Notes under the pieces: generated by a model | Seen by the model: only the letters and a program-made list of their open reading frames with translations | Told to the model about the DNA's origin: nothing | Database searches by the model: none | Position numbers and translations under genes: made by a program | In this document: in pieces, positions 10,093 to 62,893 of the stretch | Layout: the number at the start of each line of letters is the position of its first letter | How positions within the stretch are numbered: the stretch's first letter is position 1 | Source: Rugalucina vietnamica | Lineage: Eukaryota > Mollusca > Bivalvia > Lucinida > Lucinidae | DNA: 64,000 nucleotides | Reading direction: 5' to 3' | Assembly (NCBI GenBank): GCA_964017185.1 | Contig: OZ024874.1 | Span: forward strand, 51,612,856-51,676,855

Positions 10093-13000
10093 TTATTTCT
10101 TGAATAGTGCTGATGTGTGCTGGTGAGTTCTTTGATGGCTGACTAGGCCAATTCTGGCTCTAAACTGTCGGTTGCAAGTAGAGCAAGTCAATGTCATAGA
10201 GTCTGCTGGTGGCACATTTGTTTTGGCTTTGCGCTCTCTTCGCTTTCTTTCAGCTTCACAGATTCTCTTCTTTTCATAGAGAGCTGCTCCTTTGTTGATG
10301 AGACCTCGCCACTTTGATCGCTCCTGTGCAGTCTGTTCCCAGGACCCCATTGGTATTTCGAAATCCTTCAGAGAGGCTTTGAGGGTGTCTTTGTAGCGTT
10401 TCTTCTGGCCACCTTGAGAGCGCTTTCCCTCCTGTAGTTCTCCATAGAAAACTTTCTTTGGAAGTCGCGCATCAGGCATTCTTATAACATGGCCAGTCCA
10501 TTTTAGCTGTGCTAGCTTTAAGACTGTATGCATGCTTTGCATCCCTGCTTTCCTCAGGACCTCTGTGTCTGGAATCTTGTCCTGCCACTTGATTTTTAAC
10601 AACTTTCTCAAACAGCTTAAGTGGAAATGGTTAAGTCTCTTTGCATGGCGTTGGTATACTGTCCAGGTCTCACATGCATACGAGAGGGTTGGCAGTACCA
10701 CAGCCTTGTAGACTTTAAGCTTGGTGTCAAGCTTGATTCCATTTCGCTCCCAGACATTTGCACGGAGTCTTCTGAATGCCACACTAGCTTTTGCAATTCT
10801 GGCAGTGATCTCATCATCAATACGCACTGCTCTGGAGAGAGTGCTTCCCAGGTAGGTGAACTTGTCAACGACTTTCAGTTTTTGCCCATTCACAGTGATG
10901 GTTGGTTCATTATATGGTTTTCCGGGGGCTGGTTGGTGTACAACCTCTGTCTTTTTTGTGCTGATTGTGAGATCATAGTTATCACATGACTGTGAGACTT
11001 GATCCATGGCTCTTTGCATTTTTGCCTCTGTGTTGGCATTCTTATCCATATCATCTGCATAGAGGAGCTCATCTAGCACATCAGTCCGGACCTTAGTTTT
11101 GGCTTGCAACCTTCTGAGGTTGAATATGTTGCCATCAAAACGGTACCTGATTGGAAAACCAGTGTCACTGTCCTGAAAAGCATCCATAAGCATGGCAGAA
11201 AACATCATGCTGAACAGTGTTGGTGCCAGAACACAGCCTTGTTTGACCCCATTTGTTACTTCAAATGGTTCAGAGAACTCTCCATCATTTTGCACACGTG
11301 CCTGCATGCCATCATGAAACTGCCGCACCATAGCTATGAATCTGGGTGGACAGCCAAACTTGGCCATGATTTTCAAGAGTCCATCACGACTAACAGTGTC
11401 AAAAGCTTTGGTGAGGTCAACAAACGTCATGTATAGATCTACATTCTGTTCTTGGCATTTCTCCTGAAGCTGTCTTGCTGTGAAGATCATGTCTATTGTC
11501 CCTCTGTCTTTTCTGAATCCACATTGACTTTCTGGGATAAGTCCCGTCTGATCAAGATGAGCATTCAGACGATTTAACAGAATTTTTGCAAGTATCTTCC
11601 CAGCAATTGATAGGAGGGAGATGCCTCTGTGATTGTCACAGACTTGAGGATTTCCTTTCCGCTTGTATAGGTGGATTATGGATGCATCCTTCAATTCTTG
11701 TGGGAAAGCCTCCTTCCTCCACATACAGTGAAACAACTCTGTCAGTTTCTCTGCCATGGGTAGCCCCCCAGCCTTGTAAACTTCGGCAGGAATTGCATCT
11801 GCACCTGGGGCTTTGCCAGATGATAGTTGTTGAACTGCTTTTCTTGTTTCCGTAACGGTAGGAAATTCATCTACCAGAACGTTGCACTCTATCTGTGGAA
11901 GTCTGTCGATTGCATCCTGATTGATGCTTGATGGTCGATTAAGCACACTATTGAAGTGTTCTGCCCACCTTTCCAAGATAGCTTCTTTATCTGTGAGAAG
12001 AGTGTTTCCATCTGCATTGAGCAATGTGGTGGCTCCAGAACTCTTTGGACCATAAATGGTTTTCAGTGCATCATGAAATTTCTTCATGTCCTTTCTATCC
12101 GCAAAAGACTGAATTTCTTCTGTTTTCTTCCTCAGCCAGGAATCTTGCATGTCCCTAAGCTTGGTCTGGACTGTCTTACAAATGTTGCTGTAGGCTGCTT
12201 TCTTTGATACTGAGCTAGTATCATCTTGATGTGCCTTGAGCAAACGGTGCTTTTCTTCAAGAAGCCTCTGAATTTCATCATCATTCTCATCAAACCAGTC
12301 TTGATGTTTGCGAGATGGATGGCCTAAGGTGCTTGCAGCTGAAGAAAGAACTGTTTTATGGAAAACTGTCCAGTTTTCTTCGGGGTCCTCTGAACTGAGA
12401 TTCATTGCATCCAGTTGGTTGCAAATGTCTGTTAAGAAATCTTGTCTCATGCTGTCTTTATTCAGCTTTGAGACATCCAGTCTCTTAGGAGCTTTCTTGC
12501 CTTGAGGTCGCCTCGCAGGCTGTATTCTTAGGTTGAGTTTGCTGACAACCAGTCTATGATCTGTCCAGCAGTCTGCACCACACATAGTCTTTGTCACTTT
12601 AACATCCTGCCTGTCTGTTCTCCGCACTATGACATAGTCTATGAGATGCCAGTGTTTGGAACGGGGATGCATCCAGGATGTTTTGTTCCTATTAGGTAGA
12701 CGGAAGACTGTGTTGGTGATTAGAAGATCATGTTCAGCACACTTCCTGAGAAGCAAGAGACCATTGCTGTTGCACTTTCCAACCCCTTCTGGACCTATAA
12801 CTCCTTCCCAGGTCTGGTGGTCTGTACCCACTCTGGCATTAAAGTCGCCAAGAAGGATAAGCTTGTCTGTGCGGGGTGTTGCAGAAATAACATTGTCTAG
12901 GTCATCATAGAACTTGTCCTTGACCTCATCTGGATTGGTCAGTGTGGGTGCATAAGCACTGACAATAGTTGCATGTTTATTGTCTGACAGAGGAAGTCTC

Positions 13001-13251
13001 AATGTCATTAGACGGTCATTAATGCCTTTTGGCAATCCTGACAGCTTACCAACAAGTTCTGTTTTGATGGCAAAGCCAACTCCTGCTTCACGCCTCTCTT
13101 CACTTTTGCGTCCACTCCAGAAGAAGGTGTATCCAGCACCAACTCCTTTGATCTCCCCAACATCTGCGAACCGAGTCTCACTCAATGCAGCTATCTGTAT
13201 ATCATACCTTCCAAGTTCTCTGCCCACAAGGGCCGGGACGTTGCCTCCATT
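10093..13251 (-). CDS. LINE ORF: endonuclease plus reverse transcriptase plus C2H2 finger
   Basis: A single open frame of about 1050 residues encodes, in order, an exonuclease-endonuclease-phosphatase type endonuclease (ALSETRF near residue 14, LLGDFNARVG near 125, IDYV and TDHRLVVSK), a reverse transcriptase (NHRGISLLSIAGKI, FVDLTKAFDTVSRDGL, GVKQGCVLAPTLFSMMF, LLYADDM), and a C-terminal CSTCNRQF...HQRTH zinc finger. It nicks target DNA and copies its own RNA. The first GTG codon is at 13225-13227, but homology reads upstream as NVPALVGREL to a stop at 13252-13254. The N-terminal strand with the first catalytic asparagine (usually WNVR) is therefore missing. This is 5' truncation with no internal stop or frameshift, so the copy is young but unlikely to be active. 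The clade (RTE-, I- or Nimb-like) is uncertain. Confidence 0.93.
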   Translation of the reverse strand, partial: NGGNVPALVGRELGRYDIQIAALSETRFADVGEIKGVGAGYTFFWSGRKSEERREAGVGFAIKTELVGKLSGLPKGINDRLMTLRLPLSDNKHATIVSAYAPTLTNPDEVKDKFYDDLDNVISATPRTDKLILLGDFNARVGTDHQTWEGVIGPEGVGKCNSNGLLLLRKCAEHDLLITNTVFRLPNRNKTSWMHPRSKHWHLIDYVIVRRTDRQDVKVTKTMCGADCWTDHRLVVSKLNLRIQPARRPQGKKAPKRLDVSKLNKDSMRQDFLTDICNQLDAMNLSSEDPEENWTVFHKTVLSSAASTLGHPSRKHQDWFDENDDEIQRLLEEKHRLLKAHQDDTSSVSKKAAYSNICKTVQTKLRDMQDSWLRKKTEEIQSFADRKDMKKFHDALKTIYGPKSSGATTLLNADGNTLLTDKEAILERWAEHFNSVLNRPSSINQDAIDRLPQIECNVLVDEFPTVTETRKAVQQLSSGKAPGADAIPAEVYKAGGLPMAEKLTELFHCMWRKEAFPQELKDASIIHLYKRKGNPQVCDNHRGISLLSIAGKILAKILLNRLNAHLDQTGLIPESQCGFRKDRGTIDMIFTARQLQEKCQEQNVDLYMTFVDLTKAFDTVSRDGLLKIMAKFGCPPRFIAMVRQFHDGMQARVQNDGEFSEPFEVTNGVKQGCVLAPTLFSMMFSAMLMDAFQDSDTGFPIRYRFDGNIFNLRRLQAKTKVRTDVLDELLYADDMDKNANTEAKMQRAMDQVSQSCDNYDLTISTKKTEVVHQPAPGKPYNEPTITVNGQKLKVVDKFTYLGSTLSRAVRIDDEITARIAKASVAFRRLRANVWERNGIKLDTKLKVYKAVVLPTLSYACETWTVYQRHAKRLNHFHLSCLRKLLKIKWQDKIPDTEVLRKAGMQSMHTVLKLAQLKWTGHVIRMPDARLPKKVFYGELQEGKRSQGGQKKRYKDTLKASLKDFEIPMGSWEQTAQERSKWRGLINKGAALYEKKRICEAERKRRERKAKTNVPPADSMTLTCSTCNRQFRARIGLVSHQRTHQHTSALFKK

Positions 13252-20875: not shown

Positions 20876-23800
20876 TGCCTAGGTCACACTAGGGCTTACG
20901 TACTCTGCGGACGCTGCGGATAGGTGTTCCGTATCTGTCCGTCCTATCCGTAACGATCCGTATCTCATCCGTAATGTCCGTAACTGTACGTATCGTATCC
21001 TCAGGGCGCGGTAGATCCGCGGGCAAATTTTCATAACTGTCAAAAATGCATGCGCGGATGGACGATCGGTAATGGTAGGCAATGGTACGTAACTGAAGGC
21101 ATTTATTCGAATCTGTCCGTATCTAATCGCATCTAAACGTATCATTCCGCGATCAAGCATTTGTTGCGGATCGATACTGTTACATACGTGTTGTTTCTTT
21201 CGGTTGCGGTCTTTGTCGTTTATACACACTTTTTCGATACAATTTAATACGTTCAGATACGAACACGTAATGTTACGGTTTTCCTAAAGTTTACACAGCA
21301 TGCCACACGTATGAAAACGGAATCAAACCAGGATGCAACTTGAACAATGCTAATAAGCGTGTGGCTGAGCCCTCTAGAGCTGAGTGTTTGGGCATAACAT
21401 AATCTGTATCCAATGCTTGAATGAATCATACAAGAACGTTTCTGGAATATATAGTCTCCTTGACAAAAATGTCCGTCATTTTTCTATTATACAGGTAATT
21501 TATTTATTTAAGGATATCCATAATTCATTTATGGATATCCATAATTCATTTATGGATATCCTTAATTCATTTATGGATATACTTAAATAATTAAAGATAT
21601 CCATCAATATTTTTGGATATCCTAAAATGAATTATGGATATCCATAAATGAATTATGGATATCCATAAATGAATTATGGATATCCTTAAATGAATTATGG
21701 ATATCCATAATTGAATTATGGATATCCTGAAATACATTTTTGGATATCCAAAAATCCCGATGAATTATGGATATCCATAATTCGATTTTTGGATATCCAA
21801 AAATCGAATTATGTATATCCATAAATCAGCTCATTTAAGGATATCCTTAAATGTGTTTTAGGATATCCAAAAATAAGCTTGAATTTAGGATATCCATAAT
21901 TCGATTTTTGGATATCCATGATTCTTTTTTTGGATATCCATAATGATCTGATTTAAGGATATCCATAATTCGATTTTAGGATATCCATAATTCATTTTAA
22001 AAATATTTCTTTTCCATAATGATTTTTTCCGTGTAATACGCATACGCTAACTTAAACTGCTCGAAACGGAAGCCAACGTAAATTCAACCACACCGGATGC
22101 CTCCATTCTCTGACTAGGGAGAAATCATTATATCCCATAGGCACGTATGGGGTGCCGTTTTACTATTTATTTCCTATTTATGGATATCCATAATTCAGTT
22201 TTGGATGTCCAAAATTCATTTTTGGATATCCATAACATATTTTTGGATACCCATAATTCTTTTTTGGATATCCTAAAATTGATTTATGGATATCCTTAAT
22301 TCGGCTGAATATTGGATATCCATAAATTGATTTTAGGATATCCTATAATCGAATTATGGATATCCTTAAATACAATCCTATTTTTGGATATCCATAATTC
22401 GATTATAGGATATCCTAAAATCGGGCTAATATTGGATATCCATAATTCGATTTATCCTTAATTATTGTAGGATATCCATAAATGAATTAAGGATATCCAT
22501 AAATACATTATGAATATCCTTTAATAAATTATGGATATCCAAAAATAGGGAATAAATAGTAAAACGGCACTCCATAGGCACGTACATCATTTTTTTGTGA
22601 TTTAAGGATATCCTTAAATGAATTATGGATATCCTTAAATACAGTCCTATTGAAGGAAATCCATAACTCATTTATGGATATCCATAAATCGAATTATGGA
22701 TATCCAATATTAGCCCGATTTTAGGATATCCTTAAATCGAATTATGGATATCCAAAAATAGGATTGTATTTTAGGATATCCATAGTTCGGTTTTAGGATA
22801 TGCTAAATCTATTTATGGATATCCAATATTTAGACGAATTTAGGATATCCTTAAATTGATTTTAGGATATCCAAAATGAATTATGGATATCCAAAAAAGA
22901 ATTATGGATGTCCAAAAATAAATTTTGGATATCGAAAAAAAATAAGGATATCCATAATTCATTTCAGGATATCCATAATTATTATGGATATCCATAATTC
23001 ATTTATGGATATCCATAATTCATTTTAAGATATCCAGAAATGTTAATGGATATCCTTAATTATTTAAGGATATCCATAAATGAATGAAGGATATCCATAA
23101 ATAAATTATGGATATCCTTAAATGAATTATGGATATCCAAAAATAGGGAATAAATAGAAAATGGCACCCATAGGCACGTACATCATTTTTTGTGATTTAA
23201 GGATATCCTTAAATTATGGGTATCCTAAAATACAGTTCTATTGAAGTACATCCATAACTCATTTATGGATATCCATAAATCGAATTATGGATATCCAATA
23301 TTAGCCCGATTTTATAATATCCTTAAATCGAATTATGGATATCCAAAAATAGGATTGTATTTTAGGATATCCATAGTTCGATTTTAGGATATCCTAAAAT
23401 CAATTTATGGATATCCAATATTCAGAAGAATTAAGAATATCCATAAATCGATTTTAAGTATCCAGAAATGAATTTTGGATATCCAAAATGAATTATGGAT
23501 ATCCATAAATAGGGAATAAATAGTAAAACGGCACCACATATGATTGTTGGTTGATGCGTGCATTTACGGTGTAGATACGTTTGTGTTACGGTTTAGATAC
23601 GGAAAGATTCGAATCAACGCCTTCATTTACATGTCATTACGTACTATTACGGATGTTTCATCCGTGCCCAATTTTTGACTTTTTTCAAAATTTGGGCGCG
23701 GATGGAATCGGACTTGCATATACAATACGTTAAGATACGAACATATACGGAAAAGATACGAATTGTTACGGATATGACGGATAGATACGAAAGGTCAGTC

Positions 23801-33764: not shown

Positions 33765-34128
33765 TAGTATTTTTTTTTTTTCTGTCTTATCCTGCTGCAG
33801 AATATTTTAGGATGTTGAGGCATGACAAATGTTGCCGTCTTATACTTCAGCTTTCATTCCTTACCTTCTTTAGACATTTTGAAGGCGGTAATAGTTGGCA
33901 CATACATACCTGTACAAATGCAATTTTACATGTATGGTCAGTGAGTGTGACGTCATACATAGACATAGACATGATGTTGAAATATAGATCTATAATATTT
34001 TTAAATTATGCTTACTGTGTATAAAATTAAGTCACTCTACAGACATAGTAAGATAGCAATTATTGAAATGGCGATGTTTTTAACGCTTAAAATTGTAATA
34101 TGGGCCACTTGTATATGTTCCGTTGTAC
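33765..34128. other. No recognisable feature
   Basis: Spacer before the miniature LTR element, with a T-run at 33770-33781. No domain in the short frames. Confidence 0.35.
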
Positions 34129-34133
34129 ACCCT

Positions 34134-34388
34134 TGTTATGTCCCATCGCACCACTCATTCATTCGAGATCACATGATGCGTAGCTTCTATAAATAGCACA
34201 GCTATTCGATACAATGTATCATATATGTACAATCTCTGACATGCTGCGTCAGGGAGTCGACTCTTTGGCTCAGTGGTTAGAGCATTGGATTTCTACCCCG
34301 GCGGTACGGGTTCGAATCCCATCTGGGACGTGGGATTTTTTTCAAACTATGCATCATTTCTTAGTTACGAATTTTCATATTCGTAATA
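34134..34388 (+). repeat. 5' LTR of the miniature element
   Basis: Starts TGTTATGTCCCATCGCACC and ends TTCGTAATA. Contains TATAAATA at 34188-34195 and the tRNA-like unit at 34259-34330. Confidence 0.95.
34259..34330 (+). ncRNA. tRNA-like Pol III unit within the 5' LTR
   Basis: The A box TGGCTCAGTGG (34266-34276) and B box GGTTCGAATCC (34309-34319) match consensus. A cloverleaf can be drawn: a perfect 4-bp D stem (GCTC/GAGC), an anticodon stem TTGGA/CCCGG with wobbles and one mismatch, loop TTTCTAC (anticodon position TCT, Arg-like), and a T stem ACGGG/CCCAT with one mismatch. The acceptor stem is weak, so it is tRNA-derived rather than a functional tRNA. A seven-T terminator follows at 34336-34342. 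Confidence 0.8.
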
Positions 34389-34406
34389 TGGGGGCTCGTC
34401 CGGGAT
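34389..34406 (+). promoter_or_regulatory. Primer binding site for tRNA-Pro
   Basis: TGGGGGCTCGTCCGGGAT is the exact complement of the conserved 3' end of tRNA-Pro with CCA, the same site used by gammaretroviruses. It starts directly after the 5' LTR. Confidence 0.95.
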
Positions 34407-34483
34407 AAGGACCATTTGAGTCATTTAGTCATTATCATGACATTCTCGTAATCATAAATGATTACTTTCTCGAAATGGGGGTG

Positions 34484-34738
34484 TGTTATGTCCCATTGCA
34501 CCACTCATTCATTCGAGATCACATGATGCGTAGCTTCTATAAATAGCACAGCTATTCGATACAATGTATCATATATGTACAATCTCTGACATACTGCGTC
34601 AGGGAGTCGACTCTTTGGATCAGTGGTTAGAGCATTGGATTTCTATCCCGGCGGTACGGGTTCGAATCCCATCTGGGACGTGGGATTTTTTTCAAACTAT
34701 GCATCATTTCTTAGTTACGAATTTTCATATTCGTAAGA
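34484..34738 (+). repeat. 3' LTR of the miniature element
   Basis: 255 bp, ends TTCGTAAGA. Its tRNA-like unit (34609-34680) has the A box changed to TGGATCAGTGG, while the B box and the T7 run (34686-34692) are intact. Confidence 0.95.
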
Positions 34739-35027
34739 ACCCTGGGTGTTGTAGCAGCGAAATTTCATTACCACTGATCGATTGCAGTTTTGTGAGCCAT
34801 TGAAAATGACATTTCAAATGCACTTTTGTAACAGATAGTTAGTGTGCAGAAACTGTGCGAATGGACACATAACCAATTATCTGACAGTGAATATTTGCTA
34901 AATATGTTCGGTAGCGAACTAATGATTAAACATACCATTGATTTGTTAAGCCAACAACAAACACTTTTGATTATCAGTTCGGCATGGATGTATTGAGTTG
35001 CGTCAGCGTCGCGTTTCCGCCGCTATC

Positions 35028-35489: not shown

Positions 35490-38140
35490 GTTAGCTCTTC
35501 GGTCCTCGTGGTGAATCTCTAACTAGCCAATGAATCAGCAAGGACAAACAATTAAATCATGATAAACATCCCGATGAATCAAAAACGAGGACTACAGATT
35601 CAGTGAGCTGCCCGAGATGGAGATCCCTGGGTGCCGAATAACCTACTGAAACCCGGAACAAAAGAAAAACACCAGTTGAACCCCGGAGAAAAAATTCCCA
35701 CTCCAAAAACCGAGGTAGGAAAAACCAAACTAACAATCAGGTACTAATACTAAGAAAACATGAAGCAAAAGGAGTGAGCAGCTATTTTCCCAACAGGTGG
35801 CCATTAAGTCACCCACACTTAACTAAAAATATGAAAACAAACATAAGCACAAAAATTCATCACCAAGACATAAACAATAAGAACCACCGCAGAAGTATCG
35901 CATTGGAACAATCAGTAATATAAAATTACTGGCGGGCTTAAATCGATTTTACATGCGCCTAACCTAATCCACAGCTTCTGTAGTGGTTCACAACATTTAG
36001 TAACATGTACGAGGGAAAATCCAAAATAACGTGAACTTTTGCTGTAGCGTCAACATACGTAGATAAAGTTTAGAAAAAATGCCTATGGCGATAAATCAGA
36101 ACATTCGTATATCAAGATAAGATGAAACAATTACGTATCACAAACACACTGCGCCATTTTAAACCATGGTGACGCATAGGCGGCGCACGCGAATTTTCGG
36201 TCGTGTCCTGTGTAATACATGTCTCGATGAAATGTAAAATAGGCATGCGAATCGCGCCAAACTTAGTCCAGTCAAAGCTTGGTGTTTAGATAATGCTTAG
36301 CATCAGTTTCAACAAATTTGAGTCATGCGTTTTTGAAATACTAATAACAAGTGTGCGCGTTTCAACCTGCATTTAACGATAAAAACGTTGTCGCCACACA
36401 AAGCTTAAATCTTTGCGATTACTAAACTAGCCGCGAATTTTTAAAGCGCCAACACAAAGACCGAAAATAACTAAATGACAAAAAATAAGAACATTCAATG
36501 TATAAATTAGTTGTGTAAAATATTCCCCTTGTGATTCTGACGATAAAATAGCATAACAAAGATGGAAAAAGAAACAAAAATAACGCGCGTCACTGGTGAC
36601 GTAAATGCGTAATGCGCAGACCGCATGCAGAAGGCTGATGATGAGGCAATTTTGAAGCAATTTAAAGTTAGAATTTGTTTCGAGTTTTGGATACTGACGG
36701 AAAAGTACAAAGCACAATTAGTAAAAATTCTTTTATCTATGGTACACGTTGAATAGATGGCCACAAGTTCAATTCAAAATGAATAAAAACGCCAACGACG
36801 TTACGAAATCAAAGCTGACGTGCGCCAGGTAGACCATGACGACATTTTTGTTTTGACTGTAGATTTTTAACGGGTAGTTATTTTTGCCTGATATTTTGCC
36901 ACGGTATTATTGACACATTCCTATTTATGTTCATGCTATTTTCTAAGCATTAGATTGAGCTGTATAGAAGCTACAGCAAAAGTCTACGTTATTTTGGATA
37001 ATCCCCCGTAGTTGTTCGGTCCTCGTGGTGAATCTCTAACTAGTCAATGAATCACCAAGGACAAAGAAATAAGTCACGAAAACCACCATGATGAATCAAA
37101 AACGAGGACTCTCAGATTCAGTAAAAAGGTACAAGTAGGCAAAGATCAGGAAAAGGCGCAATCAGAAAAAGATTCCCACTCCAATAACCGAGTTGGGGAA
37201 AAAACAAACTGACAATCAGGTACTTATACCATGAAACAAATCGTAAGCCGAATGAGCAGCTATTTTCCAAATAGGCGGCCACTCAGTTACCTTAACTTAA
37301 CTAAAAATATGAAAACATACATAAGGCGCCAACAGCACAAAAAATTTTAAACACCAAGACATATACAAAAAGAACCACCACAGAAGTATCGCCTTGGAAC
37401 GATCAGTAACACAAAAATACTGGCGGGCTTAAACCGGTTTTACATGGCCATAACCCTCACCCTCAGCTTCTGCAGTGGTTCATAACATTTAGTTAGTTCT
37501 TCGGTCCTCGTGGTGAATCTCTAACTAGTCAATGAATCATCAAGAACAAACAAATAAATCAGGATAAACATCCTGATGAATCAAAAACCAGGACTCACAG
37601 ATTGACTAAGCTGCCCGACGATGGAGATCCCTGGGCGCCGAATAACCTACTAATTCCGGAGCAAAAGAAAAACACCAGTTGGACCCCGGTGGGGTCCAAG
37701 ACAAGAAGCTCTGTTGTCTGTTGTCTGTTGTCAGACCCCGGTGGGGTCCAAGACAACAGACAAGAAGCTCCGGCCCCAACCAACTAAAATGAATGGCTTT
37801 AAGTCGGGGCCACCATAAGAGTCTGACGCCCGACCCACCGGCGTGCAATTAAAGAAGGCAGCATAGTTATCAACCATGATTGGGTTAAAAACTAAGCATG
37901 CAGACTGTCGCATAACATTCAAGTTATAACCTATACGTCTGTAACGTGTTATGATTTTTCTGAACTGAAAAGAAAAATCATTAATTCCTATAAATTTTTT
38001 TAAATTTGTAAACCAAGTCACCATAAAATTCAGGTTCCGAAAGGCCCTCACTTACAAGCGTCTTTAACCCAACATTATGTTTGGAAATCAATTCATAGTA
38101 AGCTGCCTGACGATGGAGATCCATGGGCGCCAAATAACTT
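35490..38140 (-). mobile_element. Tandem array of retroelement V with a C-terminal ORF remnant
   Basis: On the minus strand, 38130-37731 encodes the C-terminal end of a reverse transcriptase (NDFSFQF, TRYRRIGYNLNVMRQSAC, YAAFFNCTPVGRASDS) that matches the copy at 61571-62272. It is followed by repeated 3' units near 37850-37500, 37500-37011 and 36000-35490. Each unit has the order TTCACCACGAGGACC, AACATTTAG or its complement, CACTTACGGC-like, and CTACTTGTACC in its own orientation. Such head-to-tail units are typical of pseudo-LTR arrangements in Penelope-like elements; assignment to that group is inference. A 999-bp DNA element sits in one unit. Confidence 0.75.
36010..37008. mobile_element. 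Mariner-like non-autonomous element P
   Basis: The termini CGAGGGAAAATCCAAAATAA and TTATTTTGGATAATCCCCCG are flanked by TA (36008-36009, 37009-37010) and extend as an inverted repeat to GCTGTAGC/GCTACAGC. The ACGAGGG start is mariner-like. The overlapping minus-strand frames at 36427-36764 have no transposase motif. Confidence 0.88.
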
Positions 38141-49368: not shown

Positions 49369-49534
49369 ATTTACAGGTAAAAGCTGGAAAAAAAATGAAA
49401 ATAGGTAAATAAACAAAAAAAAAAAAAAAAAAAAAAAATTAAATGAAAAACAATGCAAAAATACACAAATACACAAAAATCACATGAAATGTGACAAAGT
49501 TGACACCACTGTATGTTCGGCAGTGGGTAAACGA

Positions 49535-49624
49535 CTTAAAATTAATTCATGAACGCCCTTTGAAAGGGCCCAGAAAGGGCAGATACTGGGCCCTTTCAAA
49601 GGGCGTTCATGAATTAATTTTAAG
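49535..49624. repeat. Perfect 39-bp inverted repeat with 12-nt loop
   Basis: Positions 49535-49573 and 49586-49624 are exact complements, from CTTAAAATTAATTCATG to GAAAGGGCCCAG on the left arm. The loop is AAAGGGCAGATA. No open frame or element could be assigned. Confidence 0.97.
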
Positions 49625-49637
49625 TTTTTAAGGAGTT

Positions 49638-51023
<1,386 letters not shown>

Positions 51024-59465: not shown

Positions 59466-59612
59466 ACTATACTAAGAAAATATATCGTAAGCTGAGAGAG
59501 CAGCTAATTCACTGTAGGCGGCCGCTCAGCTACCCAAACTTAACTGAAAATATGAAATGAAAATAAAATTGAGATCCTTTAAGAGCAGTGAGCATATTTA
59601 TGAGAAAGTGAT

Positions 59613-59656
59613 GGGCCATACCGCGGTTTCGGCTATTCAAGCCTCTTCAGTGACCC
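59613..59656 (-). ncRNA. Hammerhead ribozyme, type I, copy 1
   Basis: Minus strand in order: stem I 5' GGGTCA, core CTGAAGA, stem II GGCT-(TGAAT)-AGCC, core GAAA, very short stem III ACC-GC-GGT, cleavage nucleotide A (GTA site, at 59619), and stem I 3' TGGCCC. Stem I has six pairs including one G-U. All invariant core positions are present (CUGANGA, GAAA, UH). The short stem III is typical of retroelement hammerheads, which work better as dimers. Confidence 0.88.
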
Positions 59657-59965
59657 TTTAGATCTGGCAACATGGAGCCAAAGAGAATTTCTGTAATTTT
59701 GTAATTTTCAACAGGGTAGTCGATTCAAAGACTAATATAATCAAAAATGGGGACGTTGGTTAGAAAACGAATCTAAACCGATAATAATTTTCTGATTTCT
59801 CAAAATACCCTCTCTGATCTCAAAGGACCAAAAGGAAAATATAATCTGCACTATGGATGAGACTTTTTCGTTCCGCCACACGGCACAACACCAGCTGCAG
59901 TAATAGCAAATAAAAATAAAACTGAGATCCTTTAAGAGCAGTGAGCATATTTATGAGAAAGTGAT

Positions 59966-60016
59966 GGGCCAAACCGCGGTTTCGGCTATTCAAGCCTCTT
60001 CAGTCTTCAGTAACCC
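59966..60016 (-). ncRNA. Hammerhead ribozyme, copy 2, with a 7-nt core duplication
   Basis: Same stems II and III, cleavage site GTT, stem I GGGTTA/TGGCCC. The core CTGAAGA is duplicated in tandem (59997-60003 and 60004-60010), which pushes stem I seven bases away and should disturb folding. Confidence 0.8.
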
Positions 60017-60111
60017 TCTAGATCTGGCAACATGGAGCCAAAGAGAATTACTGTAATTTTGTAACTTTTAACAGGGTAGTCGATTCAAAGACTAATATAA
60101 TCAAAATGGAG

Positions 60112-61570: not shown

Positions 61571-62272
61571 TTGTTGACTGAGTATCTCCAGTGGGATACT
61601 CAAATGTCTGGTAAGATAGCTTTTAATCAAATTTATCCATCTGAACTACAGTTGAACAAAGCCAATTTCTCGGATACCGAAGCCCCCTTTTTAGATCTAC
61701 ATCTTTCTGTTACAAATGGATTTGTTTCTTCTAAAATTTATGATAAGCGCGATGACTTTGATTTTGATATAGTAAATTTTCCGTTTTTGGATGGTGACGT
61801 TCCTCGTCGTGCTTCTTATGGTGTATACATTTCGCAACTTATTAGGTTTACTAGAGTCTGCAATCATGTTACAGACTTCAACGCTCGAAATAAATGTTTA
61901 ACGGCAAAACTTCTCCAACAGGGCTATCGGTATCATAAACTTCGAAAAACCTTTTCTAAATTTTATCGTAGACACTATGAATTGATTTCCAAATATAATG
62001 TTGGGTTAAAGACGCTTTTAAGTGAGGGTCTTTCGGAACCAGAATTTTATGGTGACTTGGTTTACAAATTTAAGAAACTTATAGGAAGTAATGATTTTTC
62101 TTTTCAGTTTGGAAAGATCATGACACGTTACAGACGTATAGGTTATAACTTGAATGTTATGCGACAGTCTGCATGCTTAGTTTTTAACCCAATCACGGTT
62201 GATAACTATGCTGCCTTCTTTAATTGCACGCCGGTGGGTCGGGCGTCAGACTCTATGATGGCCCCGACTTAA
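61571..62272 (+). CDS. Retroelement V, reverse-transcriptase C-terminal part
   Basis: In-frame homology begins near IYPSELQLNKANFSDTEAP. Key motifs are PFLDLHLSV, KIYDKRDDFDFDIVNFPFLD, SYGVYISQLIRFTRVCNHV and GYRYHKLRKTFSKFYRRHYE, ending FFNCTPVGRASDS. This is the region after the palm of an invertebrate reverse transcriptase family in which SKIYDKRDDF and YGVYISQLIR are hallmarks. The catalytic YxDD lies upstream and is missing, so the copy is 5'-truncated. A 600-bp 3' region follows to 62893. Placement with Penelope-like elements is inferred from the tandem 3' units elsewhere. It sits inside the zinc-finger remnants. Confidence 0.82.
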   Translation: MLTEYLQWDTQMSGKIAFNQIYPSELQLNKANFSDTEAPFLDLHLSVTNGFVSSKIYDKRDDFDFDIVNFPFLDGDVPRRASYGVYISQLIRFTRVCNHVTDFNARNKCLTAKLLQQGYRYHKLRKTFSKFYRRHYELISKYNVGLKTLLSEGLSEPEFYGDLVYKFKKLIGSNDFSFQFGKIMTRYRRIGYNLNVMRQSACLVFNPITVDNYAAFFNCTPVGRASDSMMAPT

Positions 62273-62893
62273 AGCTATTCATTTTAGTTGGTTGGGGCCG
62301 GAGCTCCTTGTCTGTTGCTTGGCCCACCGGGGTCCAACTGATGTTTTTCTTTAGCTCCGGAGTTAGTAAGTTATTTGGCGCCCAGGGATCTCCATCGTCG
62401 GGCAGCTTACTGAATCTGTGAGTCCTGGTTTTTGATTCATCAGGATGTTTATCATGATTTATTTGTTAGTTCTTGATGATTCATTTACTAGTTAGAGATT
62501 CACCACGAGGACCAAAGAACTAACTAAATGTTATGAACCACTGCAGAAGCTGAGGGTGAGGTTACGGCCGTGTAAAATCGATTAAAACCCGCCAGTAACT
62601 TTGTGTAACTGATCGTTCCAAGTCGATACTTCTGTGGTGGTTCATTTTGTTTTATGTCTTGGTGTTTAAAATATTTTTGTGCTGTTGGCGCCTTATGTAT
62701 GTTTGCATATTTTTAGTTAAGTTAAGATAACTGAGTGGCCACCTATTGGGAAAATAGCTGCTCATTCGGCTTACGAAATGTTTTCATGGTATATGTACCT
62801 GATTGTTAGTTTGGTTTTTTCCCACCTCGGTTTTTGGAGTGGGAGTCTTTTTCTGATTGCGCCTTTTCCTGATCTTTGCCTACTTGTACTTTT
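62273..62893 (+). mobile_element. Retroelement V 3' region
   Basis: It holds GGCGCCCAGGGATCTCCATC, TTCACCACGAGGACC, ACTGAGTGGCCACCTATTGG and CCTACTTGTACTTTTTT in order. Fragments of it recur at 14645, 20009, 35490-38140, 44680-46360, 48657 and 57400. Confidence 0.85.

Follow-up and report, generated by a model that had tools for sequence, protein, structure and literature searches.

Positions 34134-34738 of the 64-kb window (the whole stretch of DNA analysed) hold an LTR element that is 605 bp long and structurally complete, as established by direct reading together with computation. The element and the short duplications that flank it comprise the following features:

34129..34133, no strand: left target site duplication, ACCCT
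34134..34388, + strand: 5' LTR, 255 bp, first bases TGTTA and last TAATA (near-inverted ends)
34188..34195, + strand: TATAAATA, possible Pol II TATA box of the 5' LTR
34259..34330, + strand: tRNA-like unit of the 5' LTR, Rfam RF00005 36.7 bits; its anticodon loop would read UCU
34266..34276, + strand: A box of the 5' LTR, TGGCTCAGTGG
34309..34319, + strand: B box of the 5' LTR, GGTTCGAATCC
34336..34342, + strand: T7 run resembling a Pol III terminator, 5 nt past the tRNA-like unit of the 5' LTR
34389..34483, + strand: internal region, 95 bp, without coding capacity
34389..34406, + strand: primer binding site (PBS), 18 nt, directly abutting the 5' LTR
34448-34465, + strand: 7-bp hairpin inside the internal region
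34472..34483, + strand: imperfect polypurine tract GAAATGGGGGTG, just before the 3' LTR
34484..34738, + strand: 3' LTR, 255 bp, with 5 differences from the 5' LTR
34609..34680, + strand: tRNA-like unit of the 3' LTR, RF00005 27.6 bits, below the cut-off
34659..34669, + strand: B box of the 3' LTR, GGTTCGAATCC
34686..34692, + strand: T7 run of the 3' LTR, at the place matching that in the 5' LTR
34739..34743, no strand: right target site duplication, ACCCT

The five mismatches between the LTRs (LTR positions 14, 110, 136, 163 and 254) comprise 3 transitions and 2 transversions and yield a K2P distance of 0.020, a value that suggests a fairly recent insertion. Once the LTR alignment and the PBS have set the ends, the two flanks would agree over 5 bp by chance with a probability of 0.0016 in this window. 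The duplication can also be read as 4 bp (CCCT, with the right end shifted 1 base rightward), in which case the end of the 3' LTR is no longer equal to the PBS-abutting end of the 5' LTR. The 18 nt of the PBS, which we take to pair with the 3' end of tRNA-Pro, match without mismatch. With up to 3 mismatches allowed, they are the window's sole hit, against 0.01 expected. The two 255-bp LTRs, the ACCCT duplications, the perfect 18-nt primer site and the 95 internal bases described in a first-pass annotation of this DNA were thus all recovered. The purine tract listed there is likewise present but interrupted, with purines at 10 of its 12 positions.

Polymerase signals in the LTRs

The first-pass annotation had ascribed a tRNA-like cloverleaf to each LTR. 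The resemblance to RF00005 holds, exceeding the 29-bit cut-off in the 5' LTR and falling below it in the 3' LTR, but the stems are degenerate: by hand count on the RF00005 alignment, standard pairs occupy 16/21 stem positions in the 5' unit and 15/21 in the 3' unit, and the acceptor stem of the 5' unit retains four of seven. ARAGORN called no tRNA anywhere in the window, and the predicted minimum-energy folds of the 5' unit, alone (34259-34331) or through the T7 (34259-34343), contain no cloverleaf. In the 34100-34800 interval, Rfam at E 0.1 returned nothing but tRNA. By its look, the tRNA-like unit would be no working tRNA. The idea that the unit resembles the primer, such that the element might prime itself, was rejected: the best local score was 6, shuffles averaged 5.0, and 118 of the 500 reached 6.

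The promoter boxes, said to be paired in each LTR, are so only in part. The B box is intact in both LTRs and the A box in the 5' LTR, but the A box of the 3' LTR is altered by a C to A change at 34619. Only one A box in the window is followed by a B box at a distance of 30-65 nt, and none is in 60 order-1 Markov windows; relaxing the spacing to 25-75 nt adds two further pairs, at 49710 and 50058. The T7 runs, terminator-like in character, were found in both LTRs as annotated.

A TATA-type box had also been noted in each LTR, and indeed TATAAATA recurs at 34538 in the 3' LTR, the 5' copy lying 71 bp upstream of the tRNA-like unit. However, counting both strands and including the two LTR copies, the 64-kb window has 11 of these octamers, so that the presence of one is weak evidence. 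Neither AATAAA nor ATTAAA is present on the + strand of the 605-bp element. When 12 polyadenylation hexamers were tried on that strand, just two were found, TATAAA, whose two occurrences are the TATA boxes, and CATAAA at 34453, and none of the 12 lies 3' of the tRNA-like unit inside the LTR. For the suggestion of a dual Pol II/Pol III element, a possible TATA box is in place and these two polyadenylation signals are not, so that such an element may or may not be at hand.

Relationship to Helenus and other small elements

TRIMs with tRNA-like LTR sequence have been named Helenus (Kojima 2024; PMC10886601), and the available text of that paper places them in fungi, the plant Selaginella and six animal phyla, with 51 molluscan families from five orders of Pteriomorphia. 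The statement of the first-pass annotation that no animal TRIM with a tRNA-like LTR was known is hence wrong, having been overtaken by that description, whereas the anatomy it described is supported, as is its notion of a non-autonomous element whose LTRs contain a Pol III unit. As described in the same text, Helenus elements carry a PBS and a PPT, measure 311-1263 bp and, in most families, have box A motifs TRGCY and YGG and the box B motif GGTTC; the primers of some bivalve families include tRNA-Pro. Pol III is the published reading for both Helenus and Cassandra, and by the paper's own account Pol III transcription of Helenus is without experimental proof. Helenus-type elements are also reported to inflate predicted tRNA gene counts (PMC10886601).

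The features of the element agree with this description in most respects. It is a noncoding TRIM with an LTR at either end and a length below about 1000 bp (605 bp in all, LTRs of 255 bp and an interior of 95 bp), within the published size range. Both LTRs hold tRNA-derived sequence (the 5' copy scores 36.7 bits, the 3' copy 27.6 bits against a cut-off of 29), with boxes A and B in the 5' LTR and, in the 3' LTR, an altered box A beside an intact box B. The 18-nt PBS from 34389, for tRNA-Pro, sits beside the 5' LTR. Less clear is the agreement in the PPT, for which the interrupted GAAATGGGGGTG, with 10 of 12 purines, is the candidate before the 3' LTR. A difference lies in the target site: duplications of animal Helenus are given as 4 bp, as a descriptive trait outside the paper's definition, whereas ACCCT, in this one copy, is 5 bp, and a 4-bp reading requires unequal LTR ends. 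In addition, the main text of the Helenus paper does not use 'TATA' and names terminators for Cassandra alone (PMC10886601). The element falls within the Helenus definition as described there and adds a new copy to a known kind, matched by described features. From its sequence we conclude that it is very probably a TRIM of the Helenus kind with a predicted tRNA-derived Pol III promoter in its LTRs.

Literature searches on Helenus or TRIMp3 found nothing on the topic later than Kojima 2024. Among the papers since 2020 retrieved for molluscan LTR elements that are non-autonomous and have tRNA-derived parts, it was also the only one about such elements, judged by titles and the beginnings of abstracts. 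Searching published texts for letters of the LTR brought up nothing related, going by titles. Exact patterns for the tRNA-like part and the TATA region had no matches in viral contigs, and a pattern joining the B box to the tRNA-Pro PBS had none in viral contigs or in bacterial and archaeal genomes; these zeros say little, given that the collections consist of such contigs and genomes.

Several other systems share parts of this architecture. The plant TRIM Cassandra carries 5S rRNA in its LTRs (PMC7215508, PMC10886601) and, as far as these accounts go, resembles the element in having a small RNA-derived Pol III promoter and terminators within TRIM LTRs, but differs in host and in the parent RNA, which here is tRNA-like. 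No 5S rRNA match reached the cut-off in an Rfam scan of the whole window, in which just tRNA and SECIS_1 did. Ajax, a nemertean TRIM with a 5S fragment, is likewise an animal TRIM with Pol III promoter sequence in its LTR and, like the element, has a 5-bp duplication; in contrast, its promoter is 5S-derived, its primer site is for tRNA-Leu and its length is 421 or 434 bp (PMC10886601). With biv-TRIM (Satovic 2019, PMC6934838) the element shares the status of a short TRIM, as in bivalves. According to the available text, however, biv-TRIM has no clear PBS, TDR of 202-218 bp, an interior of 77-80 bp, a PPT that is mostly GGGGAGA and a conserved TGATCCCAAAGGAC, whereas the element has a perfect PBS, 255-bp LTRs, a 95-bp interior, another PPT and no TGATCCCAAAGGAC. 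None of the five window matches to TGATCCCAAAGGAC at up to 3 mismatches falls within it. Finally, tRNA-derived SINEs have a tRNA-like Pol III head and insert by target priming. The element has such a head too, but combines it with LTRs, a PBS and a 5-bp duplication, and by eye shows no LINE-like tail.

Other repeats in the window

Two direct repeats of about 200 bp (59549-59746 and 59902-60106), 92% alike, lie 353 bp apart. Each holds CTGAAGAGGCTTGAATAGCCGAAACC on the minus strand, by eye a hammerhead-like core that we would liken to the hammerhead CUGANGA...GAAA; Rfam at E 1 gave no match for these repeats. Between them, TGATCTCAAAGGAC (59815-59828) is one mismatch away from the conserved interior motif of biv-TRIM (PMC6934838), and matches to that motif at up to 3 mismatches in the window number 5 against 4.83 expected, no more than chance. 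The near-match of TGATCTCAAAGGAC would be a weak pointer to a bivalve host. The pair is a poor fit to biv-TRIM, its spacer being 155 bp against the 77-80 bp given in the available text, and a scan of the spacer gave no inverted repeats. A link between biv-TRIM and animal retrozymes through such repeats is possible.

At 49637-50169, two 185-bp copies, 99.5% alike with a period of 348, each carry an A box TAGCGCAGTCGG and a B box GGTTCGAAACC, and the second copy runs into a (TA)n tract. This locus was considered as a second Helenus and rejected by eye, as it is without a PBS and TG/CA ends. Rfam at E 1 gave no tRNA match there, and the locus would be a tandem tRNA-derived repeat rather than a TRIM. 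Nearby, at 49534-49625, a 92-bp inverted repeat, 91% self-complementary, forms a strong hairpin.

The SECIS_1 match at 62247-62314 (39.3 bits; cut-off 35) sits in a dispersed repeat, of which a 93% copy lies at 37745-37835, and for this reason is probably no selenoprotein signal. The window further includes a diverged satellite of about 2 kb (21498-23540) built of palindromic GGATATCC units of about 21 bp and, on the minus strand at 10093-13251, an open frame that spans 1052 aa from stop to stop and includes domains for endonuclease and reverse transcriptase; it probably represents the greater part of a non-LTR retrotransposon ORF. Together, reverse-transcriptase ORFs and repeats would place the host among the eukaryotes.

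Origin of the tRNA-like unit and the template RNA

The tRNA-like unit occupies the identical place in both LTRs, and two of the five LTR differences fall inside it. The differences are unclustered, the longest difference-free stretch being 96 (P 0.56), and there is no target-site scar around the unit, the longest word shared across it measuring 6 nt against a null mean of 5.8. Most simply, the unit was already in the LTR when this copy was made. The first-pass annotation had alternatively envisaged a SINE captured by an LTR, which agrees with the published guess, in the available text, that Helenus-type elements began with a SINE insertion (PMC10886601); with no scar found, such a capture may or may not have taken place. 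A late version of such a capture, in which a tRNA-derived SINE entered one LTR of an ordinary TRIM and was copied to the other by in-place conversion, leaving the unit outside the mobile family, could draw on the same guess for how these elements start. It is disfavoured by the shared placement of the unit, the ordinary spread of the differences and the two that fall within the unit; flanking duplications do not exceed chance, and by eye the T7 alone follows the unit, with no SINE body or tail. We regard this late capture as highly improbable. Likewise improbable, if less extremely so, is that the LTR of a plain TRIM by chance contains a decayed tRNA pseudogene devoid of promoter activity: the decayed cloverleaf, the negative ARAGORN result, the non-cloverleaf minimum-energy fold and the altered A box of the 3' LTR would all suit it, but the A and B boxes of the 5' LTR are intact, the T7 stands where a Pol III gene would have it, and published Helenus families are reported to conserve the boxes (PMC10886601).

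The explanation that we prefer, and consider quite probable as a whole, is a TRIM of the Helenus kind, mobilised in trans and inserted whole by LTR-retrotransposon integration, as seen in one copy. The LTRs, PBS, purine tract and duplication point to reverse transcription of the LTR-retrotransposon type. The tRNA-like unit would act as a promoter and not as a tRNA, with Pol III initiating near 34255, at times passing the first T7 and ending at the second, in the 3' LTR, which would produce a template RNA with repeated ends (R) of about 85 nt. Host tRNA-Pro would prime reverse transcription, and the enzymes and integrase would be supplied in trans by an autonomous LTR retrotransposon with a tRNA-Pro PBS and 5-bp duplications. 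Counting against this explanation are the sub-cut-off score of the 3' unit (27.6 versus 29 bits) with its altered A box, the negative ARAGORN search and the non-cloverleaf fold, as well as the 5-bp duplication, compared to 4 bp in animal Helenus, and the single copy seen.

For the template itself, we lean towards Pol III, acting through read-through, as the likelier option. In its favour are the A and B boxes, the T7 as a possible 3' end and the absence of AATAAA and ATTAAA; against it, the T7 of the 5' LTR sits between the promoter and the PBS, so that read-through is needed, and termination, were it efficient, would leave the RNA too short for a template. Alternatively, and in our view with a rather lower probability, Pol II would make the template of the same element from TATAAATA, and the tRNA-like unit with its T7 would give a separate Pol III RNA of ~85-90 nt. 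The position of TATAAATA at 34188, 71 bp ahead of the unit, is compatible with this division, as is the T7 just past the unit, which would keep a Pol III RNA short. Foamy virus LTR microRNAs are made by Pol III and, as far as the accounts available go, provide a precedent for such a transcript. The two missing polyadenylation signals on the + strand of the 605 bp and the frequency of TATAAATA, with 11 occurrences over the two strands of the 64 kb, speak against a Pol II template. A still bolder scenario, which we consider unlikely, would have a two-polymerase TRIM in which Pol II makes the template from the TATA box and the short, T7-closed Pol III RNA benefits the element, for instance by acting as a decoy, shielding it from silencing or opening chromatin, in an animal lineage whose 5-bp integrase is unlike that of other animal Helenus.

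Overall, the element is a good new example of the kind described in 2024 as Helenus, as presented in the available text of that paper, and not something unknown to the literature. Too small to code, it looks to have been copied by borrowed retrotransposon machinery and bears a tRNA-like start in both of its ends. As a structurally complete and probably animal example, it sharpens the question of the Helenus template: either Pol III passes the T7 of the 5' LTR and stops at that of the 3' LTR, or the template comes from Pol II. As a hint from one copy, the 5-bp duplication suggests that helper integrases of more than one type may serve animal Helenus.
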